This document shows, in pieces, positions 24,713-33,902 of a stretch of 64,000 nt of DNA; position 1 is the stretch's first letter, and every line of letters begins with the position of its first letter. A program made the position numbers and the translations under genes. The notes below the pieces were generated by a model. It saw nothing but the letters and a program-made list of their open reading frames with translations, had not been told where the DNA came from and searched no databases. Origin of the DNA: Streptomyces venezuelae (GTDB lineage Bacteria; Actinomycetota; Actinomycetes; Streptomycetales; Streptomycetaceae); the NCBI RefSeq assembly GCF_008642375.1, contig NZ_CP029194.1:4278001-4342000 (forward strand), in the 5' to 3' direction.

Positions 24713-26095
24713 TCAGAGGCCGCGCCAGCCCGCCTCGTCCACCCCGCCCGGTACCGCGTCCCCCGGCTCGTACGGCTCCCGGGTGAAGACGAAGGACGCC
24801 AGGTCGAGATGGCTCACGCTGCCGTCGGGGCGCCGCACCACCCGGAGCGTCTCGCCCGCGTAGTAGCCGTTGAGCCCGACCCAGCCGCCCTCGGGCAGCG
24901 CACGGAAACTCGCCCGCCGCCCGGCTCCACGCAGCGGCTCCAGCACCACGGAACGCTCGGGCCCGAGCCGGAGCCCGTACGCGTACGTGCCCCAGTACCA
25001 AGGCCCCGTCAGGGAGAGCAGCTCCTCGTCGACCTCCGCCTCCGGAAGGGGGCGCCAGGGCTCCGGGAACCTCGGCTCGGCCTCCGCCACGATCCGTACG
25101 AGATCGGCCGCCACTGCCGCCGTCAGCGGCCCGGACGTGGCATTGGCGAGGGCGATCGCCGCCAGGCCGTCCTCGACGCTCACCCAGAGGCAGGCGACGA
25201 AGCCCGGCAGGGAGCCGGTGTGCCCGACCAGGGTCCGGCCGTCCTTGCGCAGCAGCTGGAGACCGAGCCCGTAGCTCCCCTCCCAGTCGCCCTCACCGGC
25301 AGGGGACGCGGGAGCCCGCATCTCCTCCACCGAGGCGGTCGCGAGGACCCGCTCGTCACCCGCCGCGAGGAACACGGCGAATCGGGCCAGATCCGCGGCA
25401 GTCGACCACAGCTGGCCGGCCGGCGCCATCAGCCCCAGATCCACCGACGGCTCGGGAAGCATCACATCGGCCCAGGGGTGCACCGCCCAGCCGCCCGCGT
25501 GCGGGGCGACCGGGTCGAGCGTTGTACGGCTCATCCCCAACGGCTCCAGGATCTCGCTCCGCAGCGCCTCCGCCCAAGGAACTCCCCGCACCTCCTCGAC
25601 GAGTGAACCGAGCAGCGTGTAGCCGGGGTTGGAGTAGTGGAAACCGCGCCCCGGGGTCCGGAGGAAGGGCCGCTCCCCCAGCACGTCGGAGAGCTCCGGC
25701 CGCAGTGCGGCGGAGGACCGCTCCCACCACTGGCCGGGAGTCTCGGCCGCGAGGCCCCCGCCGTGACCGAGGAGCTGAGCGATCGTCACCTCGCCGACGC
25801 TCGTTCCCTTGAGGTGGCGCTCCAGCGGATCGTCGAGGCCGAGCAGCCCTTCGTCCCGCAGACGCATCACCAGCACGGCGGTGAACACCTTGGTGAGGGA
25901 GCCGATCCTGAACTGCGTATCGGCGTCCGGCGCATGTCCGTCCACACAGCTGCGCGAACCGCTCCACACCATCGCTCCGTCACGGACCACCGCCCCGACG
26001 AACGAGGGCGCACGCCCTTCGGACTGGGCGACCGCCACACGGTGCAGCAGGGCGCGCTCGGTACCGGGCAACAAGACTTCGAAGGATGTCGTCAT
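24713..26095 (-). CDS. Serine hydrolase, class C beta-lactamase / D-aminopeptidase fold
   Basis: A 460-residue penicillin-recognising-fold protein. The catalytic S66-x-x-K69 (in RIGSLTKVFT), the Y-x-N in HYSNPGYTLLG and the H-x-G in GHTGSLPG are present, so it is likely an active serine hydrolase. No signal peptide is visible, so it appears cytoplasmic, as with several Streptomyces members. A C-terminal beta-rich domain (about 365-455, lipocalin-like) follows the catalytic domain. ATG 26095 was chosen since GGATGGG precedes it; upstream alternatives lack support. Esterase or D-peptidase activity is more likely than antibiotic resistance. Confidence 0.88.
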   Translation of the reverse strand: MTTSFEVLLPGTERALLHRVAVAQSEGRAPSFVGAVVRDGAMVWSGSRSCVDGHAPDADTQFRIGSLTKVFTAVLVMRLRDEGLLGLDDPLERHLKGTSVGEVTIAQLLGHGGGLAAETPGQWWERSSAALRPELSDVLGERPFLRTPGRGFHYSNPGYTLLGSLVEEVRGVPWAEALRSEILEPLGMSRTTLDPVAPHAGGWAVHPWADVMLPEPSVDLGLMAPAGQLWSTAADLARFAVFLAAGDERVLATASVEEMRAPASPAGEGDWEGSYGLGLQLLRKDGRTLVGHTGSLPGFVACLWVSVEDGLAAIALANATSGPLTAAVAADLVRIVAEAEPRFPEPWRPLPEAEVDEELLSLTGPWYWGTYAYGLRLGPERSVVLEPLRGAGRRASFRALPEGGWVGLNGYYAGETLRVVRRPDGSVSHLDLASFVFTREPYEPGDAVPGGVDEAGWRGL

Positions 26096-26181
26096 AGATC
26101 CCATCCAACGTGATGTCACATCCGAACCTTCCCGATCCGTCCCCTGAACATCACCCGATGGACCCGGAAGGGAGCACGGAC

Positions 26182-27117
26182 ATGAAGGTTCTGCTGGCAG
26201 GAGCGAGCGGCGCACTCGGCCGGAGCGTCACCCGGCAGCTGACCGCTGCCGGACACGAGGTCGCGGGGCTCGGTCGGGGCGCCACGAACACGTTGCGCGC
26301 CGACCTCCTGGACGCCGACGCGGTCCTCAGGGCCGTGGACGGGCTCGCCTTCGACGTCGTCGTCCACGCGGCGACCGCGCTCAAGGGCGAGTCGATGGCA
26401 CGCCACCAGAGCATGGTGCCGACCAACGCCCTGCGGACCCGGGGCACCGAGAACCTGCTCTCCGCCGCCCGCGCGACCGGCGCCCGCCGGTTCGTGGTCG
26501 AGTCGATGATGTTCGGCTACGGGTACGGCGACCACGGCGCCGGCCTCATCACCGAGGACAACACGCCCTTCGGCCCGCGCGGCACCAACGCCTGGCTGGA
26601 GCGTCACGTCGGCGCCATGCGCGCCAAGGAGCGGATGGCCTTCACCGCGGAAGGCCTCGAAGCGATCAGCCTGCGCTTCGGCTTCTTCTACGGCGCCGAG
26701 GTCACCGACAACGACGTGCTCCCCCTCCTGCGCAAGCGCTCCCTGCCCGTGGTCGCCGACCACGGACGCGCCTTCTCCTGGGTCGACGTCGACGACGCGG
26801 CGCGGGCCGTCGTCCTCGCCACGGAGGGCGGCACCCCGGGCCAGGCCTACAACATCGCCGACCGCACCCCGCTCCCCTTCGGCCGACACCTTCAGGAGGT
26901 CGCCGCGGCCTTCGGCGCTCCCCAGCCCCTGCGAGTTCCCCTCTGGCTGCTCAAGCCGGCTCCCCTGGCCCACACGGCCATGACCTCGCAGCTGCGCCTC
27001 GACGCGAGCAAGGCCGAACGCGAACTCGGCTGGTCGCCCACCCACGACGACAGCCTGGCGGGAGTACGGGCCCTCACCTCCGCCGACGGCGGTAGTAGGC
27101 GATCGCGAGCACGATGA
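26182..27117 (+). CDS. NAD-dependent epimerase/dehydratase-like protein
   Basis: A 311-residue extended-SDR protein. The nucleotide motif GASGALG is at residues 7-13 and the core shows VVVHAATAL, then VVESMMFGYGYGD and LRFGFFYGAE. I see no standard Y-x3-K catalytic pair, so it may bind NAD(P) without classical epimerase chemistry. ATG 26182 (MKVLLAGASGALG) follows GGGAG. The basic C-terminal tail overlaps, by 44 bp on the other strand, the end of the membrane protein gene. Confidence 0.85.
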   Translation: MKVLLAGASGALGRSVTRQLTAAGHEVAGLGRGATNTLRADLLDADAVLRAVDGLAFDVVVHAATALKGESMARHQSMVPTNALRTRGTENLLSAARATGARRFVVESMMFGYGYGDHGAGLITEDNTPFGPRGTNAWLERHVGAMRAKERMAFTAEGLEAISLRFGFFYGAEVTDNDVLPLLRKRSLPVVADHGRAFSWVDVDDAARAVVLATEGGTPGQAYNIADRTPLPFGRHLQEVAAAFGAPQPLRVPLWLLKPAPLAHTAMTSQLRLDASKAERELGWSPTHDDSLAGVRALTSADGGSRRSRAR

Positions 27118-27625
27118 TGATCGGCCCCCACACGGCGGTCGGGGAGAGGCAGATCGTCGCGAGCGTATGCCAGGCGTCGCTGGTGTAGGCGACGGTGTCG
27201 ATGACGCCGTACAGACTGAGCCTGCGTCCGTCACCGATGGGGACACCGGTGAACAGCACGGTAAGAACCAGGCCGCCGAGAACGGCGGGGACGACGGCAG
27301 CCATGGGCCGGACGCGTCTGCCGCCGATGACCGGGATCCAGGCGGGCACCACCTCTCCCCACCCACGGACCAGTCCGATGGCCAGGATCGCGGTCACTTC
27401 CGTGAGGATGCTCAGCCCGAGCACGTACGGGATGCTCACCCAGTAGGGCGGAAGGCCGGGCCCCTGGATCTGCCCCATCTCGAAGTGCAGGGCGAAGGGG
27501 AGCCGCCACAGGCACGACGGCAGCAGAAGCAGCGGAAGCGCGTGGGCCATGCGCATGGCCCAGCGCGGCACCGGCCGCTCGGTGTCGCTGACGAGCGGGG
27601 GCCGGTGAAGGATGCTCGGTGTCAT
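27074..27625 (-). CDS. Four-helix membrane protein, function unknown
   Basis: A 183-residue hydrophobic protein with four predicted membrane segments: about residues 25-45 (MAHALPLLLLPSCLWRLPFA), 62-85 (YVLGLSILTEVTAILAIGLV), 106-130 (AAVVPAVLGGLVLTVLFTGV) and 155-178 (ICLSPTAVWGPIIIVLAIAY), ending in RRRRR. I do not recognise a family. ATG 27625 has GGTGGAG just upstream. It lies at the edge of the accessory stretch and converges on the epimerase-like gene. Confidence 0.75.
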   Translation of the reverse strand: MTPSILHRPPLVSDTERPVPRWAMRMAHALPLLLLPSCLWRLPFALHFEMGQIQGPGLPPYWVSIPYVLGLSILTEVTAILAIGLVRGWGEVVPAWIPVIGGRRVRPMAAVVPAVLGGLVLTVLFTGVPIGDGRRLSLYGVIDTVAYTSDAWHTLATICLSPTAVWGPIIIVLAIAYYRRRRR

Positions 27626-27841
27626 GGCTCCACCCTCGTGAAGCGGACGTGGCGAGGGATCCTCCCCATGGACCGAACCGCTCCCCCGCACGGGGGAGGA
27701 GCGGCGCCCTGGGGCACGACAGCGGCGGACGCCCCGGATGGCCGTTGGGGCCCTGTAGGTTCTCAATTCCAATGTCATGCGAGTGACCACGTGACCAGCT
27801 GCTTGGAGCTGTTCTCAAACGGATGACATAGCTCCGGATTC

Positions 27842-28450
27842 TCAGGGCCGTGACAGATCCTCGCGATCGCGGTGCTGCCTCAGGATGCGGTCGACCGGCG
27901 CTCGCAGGGCGGGGGAGGTCAGTTCCAGGTCGCGGTTGTCGCGGCCTTCGAGCATGTGGTCGAGCCAGCGTTCGTACCAGGCCAGGAAGTCGGTGGCCGA
28001 CGAGACGTTGGGGCCCCAGAAACCGTCGGCGTTTCCGGTGACGACGCGGCCGGCCAGGGGACCTGTGATGCCGAGAAGCACCAGGTCGGTGCACCCTGCC
28101 TCGATGATATGCAGGAAAAGGTCACTTCGGTGAGGCGGGCCGCTGGCGAACGTGAACCCCCGAGGGCGACCGGGCTCGCCTCGGGGGTCCATCGTGAACA
28201 GCCGACATGACTGCAACGGCAGGAGGCCGTAGAACGGCGATGCGCCGCCCCCGCCCAGTGTGGTCAGGAAGCTGCGATAGGGATCGGGCAGTTCGATGTG
28301 GTGGTCGGCTTCGAACTCGGCGACCTTCGCGTCCGGCAACGGGGGGTCGAGGCGGAACCCATGCTTCTCTTCACCGAAGGAGTAGCTTCGCGGCGCGGCA
28401 TAGGGCACCTTGGCGAGCTTGCGTCGGATGCGGGCGATCCGGGAGTCCAT
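27842..28450 (-). CDS. SMI1/KNR4-family protein
   Basis: A 202-residue protein of the SMI1/KNR4 (SUKH) superfamily: LDPPLPDAKVAEFEADHHIELPDPYRSFLTTLGGGG-type core (about residues 34-75, here split by short loops) and FYGLLPLQS, then the C-terminal GRVVTGNADGFW and LAWYERWLDHML. Many bacterial SUKH proteins are immunity proteins of polymorphic toxins, but no toxin is next to it here, so this is only a possibility. ATG 28450 follows a weak purine stretch. Base composition is visibly less GC-rich than the core genes. Confidence 0.8.
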   Translation of the reverse strand: MDSRIARIRRKLAKVPYAAPRSYSFGEEKHGFRLDPPLPDAKVAEFEADHHIELPDPYRSFLTTLGGGGASPFYGLLPLQSCRLFTMDPRGEPGRPRGFTFASGPPHRSDLFLHIIEAGCTDLVLLGITGPLAGRVVTGNADGFWGPNVSSATDFLAWYERWLDHMLEGRDNRDLELTSPALRAPVDRILRQHRDREDLSRP

Positions 28451-28577
28451 TCGAACTCTTCTCTCTGTCCTCCCGCAAACTACCTGCTCACCGGCAGGGG
28501 TGTCACCAGTGTGATCGGCTGCCCGTAAGCCAGTTGTGCCCGGCATCATGCACTGGGATCCTCCCCAGGTGACCAGC

Positions 28578-28946
28578 ATGAGCACGGAACTGCGATCCGA
28601 GGCAGGATGGGACGGCCCCTACTATCGCGTTCGAACCGATGGCTTCGAGGCTTTCTTCCTCCCGAACCCTGATGACGTACTCGACGAGGTCTGCAACGTC
28701 GATGCCGAGGTTCGCCTCCCCGATGGCTCACGCTGGAGTGCGACGATCTTCACAGTCGCCGAGGTCAGCCGGTTGATGAAGAGGTGGGAGGAGACAGGAG
28801 AAGCGGCAGGTGGTCGGTGCTTCTGGTACTCGGACGGGCTGATCGTTCGAGATCCCGGCATCCGGGAGATGGTGATCGTGATCGCCGAGCTGCTTGCTTC
28901 GGGAGAGTTCGAGGGGGCCTTCCACCGCCTGGACGACTCTGCGTGA
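28578..28946 (+). CDS. Hypothetical protein of 122 residues
   Basis: I do not recognise this protein. It is small, acidic and soluble, with GWDGPYYRVRTDGFEAFFLP, a central WSATIFTVAEVSRLMKRWEE stretch, and a C-terminal helix MVIVIAELLASGEFEGAFHR. There is no signal peptide. Its size, acidity and place beside an SMI1 protein and a transposon remnant would suit an immunity or cargo protein, but that is speculation. ATG 28578 is 7 nt after AGGTG; a longer reading from 28536 is possible. Confidence 0.65.
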   Translation: MSTELRSEAGWDGPYYRVRTDGFEAFFLPNPDDVLDEVCNVDAEVRLPDGSRWSATIFTVAEVSRLMKRWEETGEAAGGRCFWYSDGLIVRDPGIREMVIVIAELLASGEFEGAFHRLDDSA

Positions 28947-28957
28947 GCTCCGATGCT

Positions 28958-31216
28958 TCATGACTGCGCATCGCATTGAAACGTCCGGATCGCCCTGAGC
29001 ACCTTCCTCCCCAAAGAGGTCAGCGTCATCGGCCGTCCCCGTTCGGCTCTCACCAGCAGCGGTCCGCCGAGCTCTCGCTCGATCCGGTTGATCTGCGCGA
29101 CAAGGGTGAAATTGTTGAGGCCGAGACCGCTCGCTGCGTCACCAAGGCTTGGATAGGCGGATGCAGCCGCGAATCGGTTCAGGCGTTCGCTGGCACCCTG
29201 GCCGCCGAGTGCCGGCTGGAGGATGCGTGGCGCTTGGCCGGCTTGGTCGATGGCCCGAAGTGCCTGGCTGTGGCTGGCGCCTCCGCGTGATCGCAACGGG
29301 ACGTTATGGGTCTTGGCCCAGCGCGCCATGTTCGCGGTACTCATGCCTTTCTCGCGTGCGAGGTCTGCGAGGGTCCGACGGCAGTGGACGTACTGCTCGA
29401 TCAGCCAGTCCCGTTCGACCGTCCCGCGGCGCCTGTAGTCCTGCGGGCCTTCACGGAGCGCGACTTCATACTCATGCGCGAGAGCGGTCAGCACGCTGCG
29501 GGAGAAACCTGTGAAGGCGGCCATCTGGTTCAGGGATTGGTGCTCGTCTAGGTAGAGACGGACGAAGGTCTCCTTCGGCACGTCCTGACGGGCCTCGAGA
29601 CGGACCTGGCCCGTCGCCCTGGCGGCGGACTTCGTCGGCGGTGGCGCGGGGGTGGGATGTTCGTCCAGGACGTGCCGGATTGCCTCGACGGTGGTGCCGA
29701 GGGCCTCAGCCGCGTACTGAACTGCGTTCTTGCGCTGGCGGACGAGGCGGTGCAGGTGGGGGCCGTCGATCCGAGCGGGGTCGGGACCCGGTAGGTCCAG
29801 CTCGTCGAGCAGGGCGGTTGGGGGCTGCCAGGTCACCGGCTCGTCGCGGATGCCGTGGCAGGCCAGGAAGTCGCGCGCCGCTCGGTCAAGCTCGCCAGCC
29901 AGCTCGGGGGTCTGGAGGACGGCAACGCGGGCGGCCTCAGCCCTGAAGGCTGCTTCGCCACCGCTGCCGAATCCTTGGGCGACTTCGGAGGGAAGTCCGC
30001 TGATGCGCTGGAACAACCAGCATCGGACGATCTGCTCGCGTCGGCCGTGGCCAGGCGGTGAGCCGGTGCGCTGACAGATCTCCGACCAGCGCTCGTGCGG
30101 CAGCAGGTCGGTGTAGTCGAGGAGTCGGCGCCGCTGGTAGTCGATGGGAACATCGTGGGCATCGAGGTAGCCGGCCAGTCGGACCAGAGCGTCCGTCGCG
30201 TCCGGCCAGTGTGGCCGGTCGTCCAGCATCTGCACGATGCGAGAGATGTCGATGCCGTCGGTGACCTCGCCGAGGCGCCGGACAGCTGCGGCGAGGCTGG
30301 TCCGGCTGCCGATGAGCAGGAGTGAGCTGGCCAGGACGGGCGCGAGAAGCCGGGCCGATCGACAGCCCGGGAAGCGAGTCGAGAGCCCGGGGCGGGCGCG
30401 AGGTGCTCTTCGGCGATGTCAGATGGCACGAGGCTCGCGAGGGTGCCGGCCGGAAGGTCCGCCAGAACGCGTCCGCCGATCGCCCGGATGTCCGCGAGGG
30501 CGTTCTGTGCCGGCTGCGGGCTCGCTGTGTAGATGCCGAAGGCGGCTGTCCCGGACTCGATGATCTCCAGCAGCCGGTCTTGGGCCGTCAATGCCGCATG
30601 GCTTGAGGGCAGCTGGAAAGTTCGGGTCTTGGTCAGGTCGAAGCCGCAGCCACCCGACGGCTCAGCGCTCGGGCGCGAGGGGGGATTGCCGCAGATTCCC
30701 AGCTGGGGGATGGCCCGACCAGAGCGGGGACGCTCGCGCTGAACTCGCTCGCAGTGCGGGCAGCAGTCGGTCAGCAGGCGTCGGTGGGTGGGGCAGGCGA
30801 ACGACCAGCCCAGGCGCCAGGCCAGCTGCCAGCGGCCTCCGGAGTCGGCCAGGCAGTCCGGGCAGAACCGCGACCCGCGGGCCCTGCCCCAGAGCACCCG
30901 GCGGTTGACGTGCCGGCGCTCGGGGTCGACGCGAAGGGCCCGCTGGTCATAGTGGGCCAGCGTCATGGCCGTGATCACGGCCGGGGCAGCCCGCTCGCAT
31001 GGGCGACGGCAGCGGTCTCCTGCTCTCGCAGCGCGATCGTCCAGTCCGGAGGGATGTCCCGCAGCTGGTTCCCGGAGCGGCCTCTCACCGGAAAGCCCGA
31101 GTGGGCCATCGCCTCCCCGAACGAGGTATTCAGACGCTCTGCCAGGACGTCCAGCCACGAGTCGAGGGCCTCACCGGGAAGCGGGTCCAGCCAGATCGGG
31201 AGCGTCCTCGGAGATC
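28958..31216 (-). pseudogene. Broken tniQ/tnsD-like target-selection gene with LysR-like C-terminal HTH
   Basis: TniQ-family proteins choose insertion sites for Tn7-like transposons. Reading leftwards, an N-terminal piece (LPIWLDPLPGEALDSWLDVL) ends at a stop at 30975. The next frame continues directly with AVITAMTLAHYDQRALRVDP, WGRARGSRFCPDCLADSGG and CPTHRRLLTDCCPHCERVQ, the zinc-ribbon region. After about 30350 the homologous reading moves to a third frame that runs to 28958. So there are at least two frameshifts; the first is consistent with loss of one C in a C-run near 30970. The last 60 residues (SLGDAASGLGLNNFTLVAQI, then LVRAERGRPMTLTSLGRKVL) look like a LysR winged helix. No proper start codon remains because the 5' end is fused to a tniA remnant. 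Confidence 0.85.
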
Positions 31217-31437
31217 TCCTCGGCGTCGTCCGAGGACGGTCCAGGCCCCTCGGGGATGAGGGTGGCCCGGTCGGAGAAGAGCAGTTCCCGCAAAGACAGC
31301 CGCAGGAGCCTGCCGTGGCGGTCCTTGAGGACGACCTCGTTGCCAGCCGTGGTGGCAGCCATCTCGACCACCTCGACGGTCTCCCCGTCATAGCGGAAGT
31401 GTGTACCGACGCCAACCCGCGCCCCAGCCCTGCTCAC
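31171..31437 (-). pseudogene. tniA/tnsB-like DDE transposase remnant (N-terminus only)
   Basis: The 88-codon frame starts MSRAGARVGVGTHFRYDGET, then VEVVEMAATTAGNEVVLKD and LRLSLRELLFSDRATLIPEG. This is the usual N-terminus of actinobacterial Mu/TnsB-type transposases, normally about 600-700 residues. After SSDDAEEISE (about 31216) it runs out of homology into the tniQ remnant, so the DDE catalytic core and the whole tniB/tnsC ATPase gene are missing. The GTG start overlaps the tnsA stop (GTGA), as expected of an original operon. Confidence 0.8.
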
Positions 31438-31982
31438 GCCGTTCTCCCCAGCACGTGCGCCGAGCTGAATGGCCGGTCGAGATCAACCGTGAACTCTTGT
31501 GTCCACAGCAAGTGATAGATCGCAGACCGGACTCGCTCCTCCGGGTGACCGGGCAAGCTGGCCACCGCTCGACGCATAGAGACTCCGTCGAGCTCAGCGC
31601 CACGAAGCTCGTCTACGAGCCCACGGTCGAACAGCCAGTCTCTGCGGTAGCCCGCCAAGAAGCGGACGTTCTCCAGCTCAACCGCGGGTGGCTCGCTCCA
31701 GACCTCGTACTTCCACCCGTGGACCTCCACCGCCTCACGGGTCCAGCCGAAAGTGAAGGCCACCTCCGGCTTGGACAACCGGTGCAGTGACTTCACATCC
31801 ACGACCACGGGTCCCTCGTCGGTGACCAGGAGATAGTCCGGGATGTGCTTGCGCACAGCCCCGTCCACCTCGGCCTTGAGCAGAAAGGGCTGGGCCACGA
31901 TGGAACGTACGGACGGATCGAAATCAGCGAAGAGGAGCCGCGCCAGTTCGAGGCGCGACTCGTAGACACGGGATTTGCGAAC
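31434..31982 (-). pseudogene. tnsA-like endonuclease remnant, 5' truncated
   Basis: An open frame of 182 codons that begins just after an in-frame TAG at 31983-31985 and has no ATG/GTG before 31898. It reads RKSRVYESRLELARLLFADF, then AQPFLLKAEVDGAVRKHIPD and VVVDVKSLHRLSKPEVAFTF, the TnsA N-terminal nuclease fold. The E of YESRLE, the D of IPDYLL and V-x-D-V-K are the expected active-site residues. The C-terminal part follows. The protein's original N-terminus is lost at a junction only a few bases from the dnaB stop codon. The region is visibly poorer in GC than its flanks. Confidence 0.8.
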
Positions 31983-31996
31983 CTACAGCCCTCCGG

Positions 31997-33478
31997 TCAG
32001 GTCTGGGCCATGTCCACGAAGCGCGAGTAGTGGCCCTGGAAGGCGACGGTGATCGTGGCCGTCGGGCCGTTTCGGTGCTTGCCCACGATGATGTCCGCCT
32101 CGCCGGCCCGCGGGGACTCCTTCTCGTAGGCGTCCTCACGGTGCAGCAGGATCACCATGTCGGCGTCCTGCTCGATCGAGCCGGACTCACGCAGGTCGGA
32201 GACCATCGGCTTCTTGTCGGTGCGCTGCTCGGGACCACGGTTCAGCTGGGAGAGCGCGATCACGGGCAGCTCCAGCTCCTTGGCGAGAAGCTTGAGGTTT
32301 CGCGACATGTCGGAGACTTCCTGCTGACGGCTCTCCTGCCGCTTGGAGCCACCCGACTGCATCAGCTGCAGGTAGTCGATGATCACGAGCTTGAGACCGT
32401 TGCGCTGCTTGAGCCGACGGCACTTGGCCCGGATCTCCATCATCGACAGGTTCGGGGAGTCGTCGATGTACAGGGGCGCCTGGGAGACGTCGGGCATGCG
32501 ACGGGCGAGCCGCGTCCAGTCCTCGTCGGTCATGGTGCCGGAGCGCATGTGGTGGAGCGCGACCCTGGCCTCCGCCGAGAGCAGGCGCATCGCGATCTCG
32601 TTGCGGCCCATTTCGAGGGAGAAGATGACGCTGGGCAGGTTGTGCTTGATGGAGGCCGCCCGGGCGAAGTCCAGAGCGAGGGTCGACTTACCCATGGCGG
32701 GACGGGCCGCGATGATGATCATCTGGCCGGGGTGCAGTCCGTTGGTGAGCGAGTCGAGGTCGGTGAAGCCGGTCGGCACGCCCGTCATCTCACCGCTGCG
32801 GGAGCCGATCGCCTCGATCTCGTCGAGGGCCCCCTCCATGATGTCGCCGAGCGGCAGGTAGTCCTCGGTGGTGCGCTGCTCGGTGACCGCGTAGATCTCG
32901 GCCTGCGCCGAGTTCACGATCTCGTCGACGTCTCCGTCGGCCGCGTAGCCCATCTGCGTGATCTTGGTGCCGGCCTCCACGAGGCGGCGCAGGACGGCGC
33001 GCTCGTGGACGATCTCGGCGTAGTACGAGGCGTTGGCCGCGGTCGGGACCGACTGGACCAGCGTGTGGAGGTAGGAGGCGCCGCCGACGCGGGTGATCTC
33101 ACCGCGCTTGGTGAGTTCGGCGCCGACGGTGATGGGGTCGGCCGGCTCGCCCTTGGCGTAGAGGTCGAGGATCGCGGCATAGACGGTCTCGTGGGCGGGC
33201 TTGTAGAAGTCGTTGCCCTTGATGATCTCCACGACGTCCGCGATGGCGTCCTTGGAGAGCAGCATGCCGCCGAGGACGGACTGCTCGGCGTCGAGATCCT
33301 GCGGGGGGACTCGCTCGAAACCGGAGAGGCCGCCGTCCCACGGGCCGTCGTTGCCGCGCTCGTGCTGGTCGTCGCGCCCGCGGCCCCGGCCGCGCCCTTC
33401 TCCTCGGGTACGGGTGGGCAGCCGGTCGCTCGGTCCGCTGTCGGCCCAAGGGTCGTCCATGGGCTCGGTAACGCTCAC
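31997..33478 (-). CDS. dnaB: Replicative DNA helicase DnaB
   Basis: The hexameric helicase that unwinds DNA at the replication fork. The 493-residue protein has a low-complexity, Arg/Gly-rich N-terminal stretch (residues 1-50), the DnaB N-terminal helical domain (about 55-160, VPPQDLDAEQSVLGGMLLSK) and the RecA-like C-terminal domain with Walker A ARPAMGKST (around 245), Walker B LVIIDYLQLM and QLNRGPEQRTDKKPMVSDLR. No intein is present. GTG 33478 is 7 nt after GGAGG. Its stop lies 15 bp from the edge of the transposon remnant. Confidence 0.97.
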   Translation of the reverse strand: MSVTEPMDDPWADSGPSDRLPTRTRGEGRGRGRGRDDQHERGNDGPWDGGLSGFERVPPQDLDAEQSVLGGMLLSKDAIADVVEIIKGNDFYKPAHETVYAAILDLYAKGEPADPITVGAELTKRGEITRVGGASYLHTLVQSVPTAANASYYAEIVHERAVLRRLVEAGTKITQMGYAADGDVDEIVNSAQAEIYAVTEQRTTEDYLPLGDIMEGALDEIEAIGSRSGEMTGVPTGFTDLDSLTNGLHPGQMIIIAARPAMGKSTLALDFARAASIKHNLPSVIFSLEMGRNEIAMRLLSAEARVALHHMRSGTMTDEDWTRLARRMPDVSQAPLYIDDSPNLSMMEIRAKCRRLKQRNGLKLVIIDYLQLMQSGGSKRQESRQQEVSDMSRNLKLLAKELELPVIALSQLNRGPEQRTDKKPMVSDLRESGSIEQDADMVILLHREDAYEKESPRAGEADIIVGKHRNGPTATITVAFQGHYSRFVDMAQT

Positions 33479-33902
33479 CAAGCCACCTCCTCCCGTCCGC
33501 TCCGCGGACCTCGCCGTGCCACTCTTTCTTACGCCACGGCCTTGATCAAAGAGTGGCTTCGCGACCGCTGCTGGCGCGTCGGGCGCCGGACCACGGTAGG
33601 CCCGCGAGGAGCGTCAGCCAATCTGGTTATCCACAGGGCCTGTGGGTGAACGGCCAGATGCTGTGGAGAACTCCCCGGATCCTGTGCACGGAGCGGGGGA
33701 CAGCCATGTGGACAAACTCATAACACCCCCACGCCCACCCATGTGACCTGCAGTTTTTCCATCCACGGCCTGTGGGGGAGAAAAACTTCTCCACCCGGGC
33801 CAAGATCAGAACAAACGGCCCACACCCGAAGCCCCGCACCATCCTGGAGTAATGGTCTCTTGGGCCTTGCATCTCTTACCTGTGGAAGATTAGATTGACC
33901 GC
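33479..33902. promoter_or_regulatory. 424-bp dnaB/MATE intergenic region with DnaA-box cluster
   Basis: No convincing gene. It carries three matches to the Streptomyces DnaA box (T/C)(T/C)(G/A/C)TCCACA: TTATCCACA at 33627-33635, TGTGGAGAA (reverse) at 33662-33670 and TGTGGACAA (reverse) at 33707-33715. There is a near match TTCTCCACC at about 33787, and two CCACAG/CTGTGG dyads (33631-33645 and near 33762). The stretch is clearly more AT-rich than its neighbours. DnaA control of dnaB, or DnaA titration, are possible roles. Confidence 0.6.

Follow-up and report, generated by a model that had tools for sequence, protein, structure and literature searches.

A decayed Tn7-like transposon behind dnaB in Streptomyces venezuelae and its actinobacterial relatives at the dnaB 3' end

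We describe a decayed Tn7-like element in a 64,000-nucleotide stretch of the Streptomyces venezuelae chromosome (C1:4278001-4342000 of an 8.56-Mb single-contig genome; hereafter the window), where it lies directly behind dnaB, near the middle of the chromosome. Sequence comparison makes it very probable that the element belongs to an actinobacterial group of Tn7-like transposons that use the 3' end of dnaB as their attachment site, and that this copy is dead. As a remnant it is unremarkable; what stands out is the dnaB-homing group to which it leads. Intact relatives encoding TnsA, TnsB, TniB and TniQ sit downstream of dnaB, with tnsA facing it.

A Tn7-like remnant behind dnaB

The window holds one decayed Tn7-like element of 4.23 kb, at 27754-31987, with minus-strand tns and tniQ pieces behind dnaB. 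These limits follow from the location of both transposon ends, the left one 9 bp past the dnaB stop codon and the right one at 27754. The features, apart from the passenger genes, are as follows (HMM, hidden Markov model; HTH, helix-turn-helix; CCCH, three cysteines and a histidine).

31997..33481, minus strand: dnaB, replicative helicase (PF03796, 363 bits); host gene outside the element, its 3' end the probable attachment site
31988..31996, minus strand: 9-bp spacer from the dnaB stop to the transposon end; its last 4 bp recur at the other end
31966..31987, minus strand: left transposon end, first ~22 bp only; 1 mismatch to the genome-wide end pattern; inner TnsB-type repeats deleted
31434..31970, minus strand: tnsA remnant, residues 58-239 of 239, 5' truncated; homology from ~31970-31966, after the ~365-bp deletion
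31210..31437, minus strand: tnsB remnant, codons 1-76; 84% identical to TnsB of the relative L007; DDE core gone
30990..31208, minus strand: tniQ residues 6-78, directly behind the tnsB remnant
30337..30987, minus strand: tniQ residues 80-296, in the frame after the frameshift; holds the CCCH zinc-finger residues
28958..30355, minus strand: tniQ residues 419-879 to the stop; open frame of 425 amino acids (28958-30235); C-terminal LysR-type HTH (HTH_1, 33.6 bits)
27754..27865, plus strand: right transposon end; right-end HMM 23.1 bits; 2 mismatches to the end pattern; three repeats (by eye)

An earlier note on this DNA had recognised remnants of tnsA, tnsB (tniA) and a frameshifted tniQ. All three are real, and they match Tn7-like proteins, not unrelated genes. 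The tnsA frame (31434-31982) scores 199 bits against NF033179 (TnsA_like_Actin, NCBIfam; cut-off 110) over profile positions 41-211 of 212, the tnsB piece is close to its intact counterpart, and the larger tniQ piece scores 42.2 bits against PF06527, over the cut-off. The tnsA fragment retains E, PD and DVK residues, invariant in a 9-row alignment, which we take to be the TnsA nuclease motif. The whole genome has one TnsA match, which is this fragment, and one TniQ match.

Compared with the DNA of the relative L004, the window copy carries three deletions: ~365 bp between the left end and tnsA, ~3,020 bp between tnsB and tniQ, and ~430 bp inside tniQ. The second is the deletion that the earlier note had proposed, fusing the start of tnsB to tniQ and removing tniB and the DDE core; the deletion inside tniQ comes in addition to it. 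The matched blocks that flank the ~365-bp deletion overlap by ~5 bases, a hint that a short repeat was common to both of its sides. By comparison with the proteins of intact relatives, tniB, encoding the TnsC/TniB AAA+ ATPase, is absent from the window copy. We thus read the window copy as a deletion remnant of a Tn7-like transposon rather than a complete member.

Two boundaries also moved. The element had been started at 28958, but its right end lies at 27754 and two passenger genes intervene; and the tnsA frame that seemed to begin 15 bp from the dnaB stop is, in its first codons, the remaining ~22 bp of the left end. Low guanine-plus-cytosine (GC) content, previously offered as a sign of acquisition, is a weak argument: tnsA and most of the passengers have a GC content of 0.62-0.66, but the dnaB end itself has 0.65 and much of tniQ has 0.70-0.73.

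In dnaB-linked relatives, the left end has the consensus TGTAGG(T/G)(T/C)CTCA and begins ~10 bp past the dnaB stop; the window left end differs from it by one base in the terminal 12 bp. The right end was scored with an HMM built from relatives, the window excluded, and its three spaced repeats persist with a spacing like that of intact right ends (read by eye). Inverted ends with repeated putative transposase-binding sites are therefore present, the right keeping three repeats and the left its first ~22 bp. With up to 3 mismatches allowed, a 23-base end pattern finds three sites in the 8.56-Mb genome: both element ends, with 1 and 2 mismatches, and an unrelated sequence with 3. Thus, the only sites within 2 mismatches are the two ends of the window element, and the same pattern read backward finds no site in the genome. 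The direct repeat that flanks the window element is 4 bp, GCCC.

Relatives recur at dnaB

We scanned 84,980 species genomes with the window tnsA, a search that finds close relatives only, and obtained 42 loci. In 24 of these, dnaB lies just upstream on the same strand; the earlier note had asked whether intact relatives insert there, and they do. Seven loci at dnaB carry all four genes as single open frames (L006, L007, L019, L021, L022, L024 and L025). A combined pattern of dnaB 3' end and transposon end occurs at 33 places in 30 of 392 genomes of the genus, while its backward control occurs in none of the 392.

Because the combined pattern presupposes dnaB, a separate search used the left end alone. 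It gave 28 matches in 24 of the 392 genomes, and 21 of the 28 lie beside dnaB or a paralogue, a proportion to be discounted since the left-end pattern was written from dnaB-linked elements and so favours their group. Upstream of the 28 matches are dnaB (at least 89% identical) in 16 cases, dnaB paralogues (48-70%) in five, a dnaB element in tandem in one, other sites in five and a contig end in one. Two of the five paralogue-side matches are copies of one locus near both chromosome ends.

Two loci deserve separate mention. At L200 (genome G129), a frameshifted dnaB copy lies near both chromosome ends, with an element showing a perfect 5-bp duplication alongside. As this decayed copy is still flanked by an element, it seems that the 3' DNA, rather than a working dnaB gene, is what counts there. 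At L067 (genome G310), the usual end lies at dnaB together with a tnsA of a distant branch (35% identical), which could be a nested element, a recombinant or a second dnaB-using branch.

In a TnsA tree, the window sequence, though its placement is unsettled, falls among eight other rows, every one of them at dnaB, though one genome accounts for more than one row in some cases. Of the 54 rows in the wider clade, 38 are placed at dnaB, 13 elsewhere and three without a site assignment. Sister elements appear to use fixed sites of their own. For L017 and L041 this is the 3' end of a gene with an OmpA domain (tested in L017), and for L031, L035 and L173 that of a glycoside hydrolase 15 (GH15) gene (domain tested in L031). 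Two further sites appear to be common to sister elements (L018/L169/L185 and L172/L183), likeness within each group being judged by eye. No tRNA was found at the targets of nine non-dnaB loci, and no small RNA (Rfam) at those of four.

Insertion geometry

To describe the geometry, 53 loci with the usual DnaB tail codons were reduced to 43 unique junctions, window included, after merging likely duplicate genomes (e.g., L004/L052, L005/L062 and L007/L045). The distance from stop codon to transposon end is 7-11 bp in 42 of the 43, with a mode of 10 bp (24 junctions); L014 has 20 bp. A perfect 5-bp direct repeat flanks 11 of 28 left/right end pairs, compared with a mean of 0.57 and a maximum of 5 when right flanks were shuffled 5,000 times. 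The 28 pairs omit elements whose contig stops at the end (L008 and L009) and weak or nested ends. Repeats of 4 bp flank the window element, L003 and the L021 mini-element. Among four further end pairs, L200 is perfect, while L026 and two in L198 are not.

The spacing follows the length of DnaB. A second set comprised 54 unique junctions with a recognisable KxRxG motif in DnaB, unusual tails included. Where 22 codons follow the motif (48 junctions), the stop-to-end distance is 7-11 bp in 46 and 14 and 20 bp in the other two; where 23 codons follow (six junctions), it is 5-7 bp. Measured from KxRxG, the end lies at 77-79 bp in all six 23-codon junctions and at 76-80 bp in 46 of the 48 others. 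The 23-codon junctions are few (L021, L023, L025, L178, L194 and a Mycolicibacterium aubagnense plasmid), and L023 and L025 share the same DnaB tail. Since one additional codon in DnaB puts the element closer to the stop, the insertion point seems to be measured from inside the dnaB coding sequence. Tn7 likewise measures from the glmS coding sequence (available text of PMC2918618).

TniQ as a candidate target selector

Two pairs of closely related elements differ in target. L021 (at dnaB) and L018 (at another site) share 87% identity in TnsA, 88% in TnsB and 72% in TniB, but only 39, 32 and 29% in successive thirds of TniQ. L019 (at dnaB) and L020 (at another site) share 86% in TnsA, 87% in TnsB and 73% in TniB, compared with 35, 19 and 25% in TniQ. 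Two site switches thus accompany a replaced TniQ, and because TnsA and TnsB remain alike across the switched pairs while TniQ diverges, this points to target choice by TniQ.

The intact TniQ is ~884 amino acids long and TnsD-like, with a TniQ core (PF06527, over the cut-off), a CCCH zinc finger, a long helical C-terminal part and a LysR-type winged helix at its end. Residues C121, C124, C144 and H147 are invariant across 14 TniQ sequences, and the same CCCH pattern is described for TnsD (PMC2918618, in the text available). An AlphaFold model of L006 TniQ, built with 14 sequences, has a mean predicted local distance difference test score (pLDDT) of 80 and a predicted template modelling score (pTM) of 0.65. 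A search with this model returned, first, Tn7 TnsD of the TnsD-TnsC-DNA complex (E 0.005, probability 0.99) and, second, TniQ of a CRISPR-associated transposon (CAST; E 0.008, probability 1.00). The TM-scores are 0.19 by query length, and no match reaches E 0.001 or better. LysR-type DNA-binding domains came next, at the C-terminus, where they are also found by sequence.

Of the other proteins, L006 TnsB matches the solved ShCAST TnsB (3.5e-16), and TniB of intact relatives matches PF05621 (39.6 bits, over the cut-off) and VchTnsC (9.3e-9); a structure search by sequence gave no useful match for TnsA. One Mycolicibacterium plasmid has a split tniQ whose C-terminal half bears the annotation of a LysR family regulator (L221, 21130-22446). 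Such LysR labels may hide further TniQ selectors.

The gene set, ends, orientation, near-fixed spacing, partial duplications, recurrence at dnaB and window deletions are read from the sequence; the reading of dnaB by TniQ and the order of the steps are what we infer in the following. TniQ would bind within the last part of the dnaB coding sequence. As the AAA+ equivalent of TnsC, TniB would bridge TniQ to TnsA and TnsB bound at the transposon ends. Insertion would then occur in one orientation, ~79 bp downstream of the KxRxG codons and ~10 bp past the stop, with a 5-bp duplication, leaving dnaB whole. The window copy would have landed in this way and later lost part of its left end with the tnsA start (~365 bp), a ~3.0-kb stretch comprising tniB and most of tnsB, and ~430 bp from within tniQ.

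Plasmid-borne dnaB genes

In a plasmid collection, 126 records match the window tnsA; the surroundings of 18 were examined, and three are at dnaB. On a 304-kb circular Mycolicibacterium alvei plasmid the end lies 7 bp past the stop of a plasmid-borne dnaB, and on a 181-kb M. aubagnense plasmid it lies 6 bp past. In Tsukamurella the distance is 14 bp; that record is labelled a plasmid, but its neighbours rpsF, ssb and rpsR look chromosomal. The M. alvei TniQ, split in two by a frameshift, is 44 and 47% identical to L006 (dnaB) compared with 38 and 27% to L018 (non-dnaB), although L019 (dnaB; 40 and 39%) and L017 (other site; 40 and 40%) show no difference.

Divergent dnaB targets lie on contigs of 29, 46, 123 and 128 kb. 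The 29-kb contig also carries a replication-initiator-like and an FtsK-like gene, and its dnaB is 88-90% identical to relatives on three Streptomyces plasmids. Pfam searches with 10 neighbours of divergent dnaB genes gave one weak AAA match; PHROGs searches with nine gave FtsK-like families for two, a replication initiator for one, families of unknown function for one and none for five. Among 72,556 plasmid records, 1,340 have a DnaB relative. Behind the plasmid dnaB at L210 (NZ_CP099469.1, 6474-6821) is a gene annotated as the C-terminal part only of a DnaB helicase, perhaps a trace of recombination.

Genes for the replicative helicase are present in every chromosome and on many plasmids. It is therefore conceivable, although we put this forward tentatively and at somewhat less than even odds, that one selector does here what Tn7 does with two: TniQ, by reading the dnaB 3' end, would secure the element a safe place in the chromosome and, in the same way, transport by plasmids with a dnaB of their own. 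This idea agrees with the insertions at the two Mycolicibacterium plasmid dnaB genes and with those at divergent dnaB genes on small contigs, one of which has plasmid-like neighbours. Should plasmid dnaB genes prove to be regular targets, a single selector could cover both pathways of the two-pathway lifestyle.

Several observations weigh against dnaB homing through TniQ, or limit its reach. In 15 of the 18 plasmid contexts, no dnaB lies in the ~2.3-2.5 kb upstream, and in the M. aubagnense TniQ the match is confined to the first ~380 residues, so this copy may be decayed. TniQ identity fails to separate targets: L006 and L024, both at dnaB, share only 40, 32 and 33% by thirds, and L017, at the ompA-like gene, is 40, 40 and 48% identical to L006. 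A perfect 5-bp duplication is lacking in 17 of the 28 end pairs, the window included, although several of these are decayed or in tandem. An NF033179 match is found in 248 of the 392 genus genomes, most of which have no dnaB junction; the 30 loci compared from among its best-scoring matches (L074-L103) form a different branch, 33-44% identical to the dnaB group. Finally, no clean empty site for the window element was found among twelve close relatives (L154-L165).

Module exchange and possible mobility of the window copy

The tnsA and tnsB pieces of the window are 91-93% identical to those of L002 and L004, but its tniQ is only 67-75% identical. Since L004 and L006 have tniQ genes 99% alike and yet share only 71% identity in TnsA, modules have been exchanged between elements. 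Back-to-back element ends, two or more together and separated by 4-6 bp, are seen at L013, L016, L021, L026, L030 and L040. These tandem copies show repeated use of the site, and they could favour module exchange.

Other insertions at dnaB have no tns gene that we could find: L157 (3.27 kb), L046 (0.6 kb) and L063 (0.2 kb), all with perfect 5-bp duplications. A cargo gene of L157 is 98% identical to one in L004 and 95% identical to one in L028. Such copies may have moved in trans or shrunk afterwards. We also observed mini-elements of ~200-230 bp with little beyond the two ends, resembling miniature inverted-repeat transposable elements, at dnaB or a paralogue (L050, L063 and L021, 9405-9636). 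The assembly contigs of L008 and L009 each correspond almost exactly to one transposon, end to end, which suggests several copies per genome collapsed by the assembler.

Given its deletions in the left end and tnsA, in tnsB-tniB and in tniQ, the window copy probably no longer moves by itself. It might instead be a non-autonomous copy, still movable by TnsABC-TniQ supplied from elsewhere. Both of its outermost ends are present, and the tns-less insertions with perfect duplications indicate that an element without tns genes may still be movable in trans. However, the left end is reduced to ~22 bp, with its inner repeats lost and one base changed in the terminal 12 bp, and the only TnsA match in the genome is this very fragment. 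We therefore regard a movable copy as improbable, at about one chance in ten.

A second alternative is that selection maintains the C-terminal half of tniQ, the 425-amino-acid frame, because its product binds DNA at dnaB on its own and might, for instance, keep incoming elements out. An open C-terminal frame survives in three differently deleted remnants (425 amino acids in the window, 425 in the second copy of L013 and 428 in L016). The ratio of nonsynonymous to synonymous substitution rates (dN/dS) for the window frame against ten sequences is 0.25-0.33, and an intact pair gives a similar 0.25. For the window tnsA fragment, four relatives were compared: two yield 0.42-0.44 and the remaining two 0.28 and 0.33, where two other pairs give 0.16-0.21. 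But broken N-terminal parts of tniQ give similar values (0.23-0.39), the window branch alone has 24 nonsynonymous to 24 synonymous changes, and GC-rich frames stay open easily. Other remnants, L005 and L029 among them, keep a short C-terminal stretch only. Because the divergence mostly predates the decay, dN/dS has little power here, and a selected tniQ half seems still less likely than a movable copy.

Empty-site search

Streptomyces aureus NRRL B-2808 (L010) has a DnaB with 99% identity to the one in the window. Two sisters, L154 and L155, whose dnaB DNA is 98 and 97% identical, lack window positions 27088-31994 and 27284-31980, respectively, that is, the element together with flanking DNA. 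Since the nearest sisters also lack flanking DNA, we claim no exact pre-insertion sequence; the sister comparison proposed earlier thus gave no clean empty site, and the duplication sought alongside it is present only as the 4-bp repeat. In L156, L158, L160 and L164, only ~20-330 bp separate dnaB from the point where similarity to the window resumes; in L161, L162, L163 and L165, it is followed by 1.1-1.7 kb of other DNA; L157 and L159 carry elements. Outside the window, the flank at 26900-27753 has three strong matches in 61 genomes: those in G004 and G021 are away from dnaB, and the third is in G031.

That the region downstream of dnaB is merely a permissive gap that collects insertions, with no special affinity for dnaB, would suit the eight of the twelve close relatives (L156, L158 and L160-L165) in which ~20 bp to 1.7 kb separate dnaB from the next shared stretch with no convincing end pair, but it is largely refuted by the fixed geometry (single orientation, 7-11 bp spacing in all but one unique junction), by spacing that tracks DnaB length and by insertions at dnaB paralogues, at the decayed dnaB copy near both chromosome ends and at plasmid dnaB genes, and we give it almost no weight.

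Cargo and neighbouring genes

The window element carries two passenger genes, both located between tniQ and its right end.

28536..28946, plus strand: passenger gene, 136 amino acids, tail to tail with tniQ as in L004; 61% identical to the L004 passenger in the same place and orientation
27842..28585, minus strand: passenger gene with a SUKH/SMI1-KNR4 domain (PF09346, 25.4 bits, exactly at the cut-off)

Relatives of the first occur in eight further loci (L002, L005, L006, L013, L017, L024, L040 and L069). SUKH is a superfamily of immunity proteins, and other cargo matches the immunity protein family TriTu weakly (26 bits; cut-off 27). Orphan immunity genes may be a cargo theme. A PADLOC search with 10 cargo proteins left nine without a match, and an L003 protein had weak Csa3/CARF matches that resemble its HTH domain; we find no convincing defence gene among the 10.

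Between the element and a beta-lactamase-like gene (window 24713-27790) are an NAD-epimerase gene and a membrane-protein-like frame, partly common to the sisters L154 and L155. A beta-lactamase-like gene lies close behind dnaB in several relatives, and the gap after dnaB changes often.

Comparison with known systems

Only a small number of natural sites have been recorded for Tn7-like elements; a review names glmS, yhiN, comM, parE, tRNA genes, guaC, yciA, ffs and rsmJ (PMC11406308, available text). The term dnaB is absent from the main texts of PMC11406308, PMC8649781 and PMC10293859, the main text of PMC8649781 also lacks Streptomyces, and PMC10991518, PMC8987985 and PMC3332091, which mention both dnaB and Tn7-like elements, do not describe dnaB as a site in the portions available. 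The earlier note's impression that dnaB is a new site agrees with this: we found no description of it as a Tn7-like site, in a literature search that left subscription papers, preprints and supplements outside. In our judgement, the dnaB-homing group offers a precise, orientation-fixed and gene-sparing site and a possible insertion tool for antibiotic producers. Moreover, nature supplies pairs of elements in which TnsA and TnsB are similar but TniQ has been replaced and the target differs, and these make DNA reading by TniQ directly testable.

Among known families, the Tn5053-type elements (tniABQR) share the gene names tniA, tniB and tniQ and the TniB Pfam match. They differ in that the dnaB group has tnsA and homes to a chromosomal gene, whereas Tn5053 targets plasmid resolution sites (PMC11406308, in the part available). 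The window tnsA is a member of NF033179 (TnsA_like_Actin), a family that also spans the distant branch. The actinobacterial Tn7-like clade of Benler et al. 2021 (PMC8649781, available text) is alike in host phylum and kind of gene set, and the dnaB group likely belongs to it; according to the same text, no member had been experimentally characterised as of 2021.

Tn7 itself (TnsABC plus TnsD, with attTn7 downstream of glmS) is a close parallel. Both have a cut-and-paste gene set, a TnsD/TniQ protein with a CCCH zinc finger, a single orientation, insertion just past the stop of a conserved essential gene, a 5-bp duplication (perfect in part of the dnaB-group end pairs) and an insertion point that seems, in the dnaB group, to be set by coding sequence as well (for Tn7, available text of PMC2918618). 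The window element falls outside the glmS-homing Tn7 subgroup, as it is inserted downstream of dnaB. Thus, the dnaB group differs from Tn7 in its target, which is dnaB and not glmS, in its selector of ~884 amino acids with a LysR-type winged helix and in its ends, which begin with TGTAGG.

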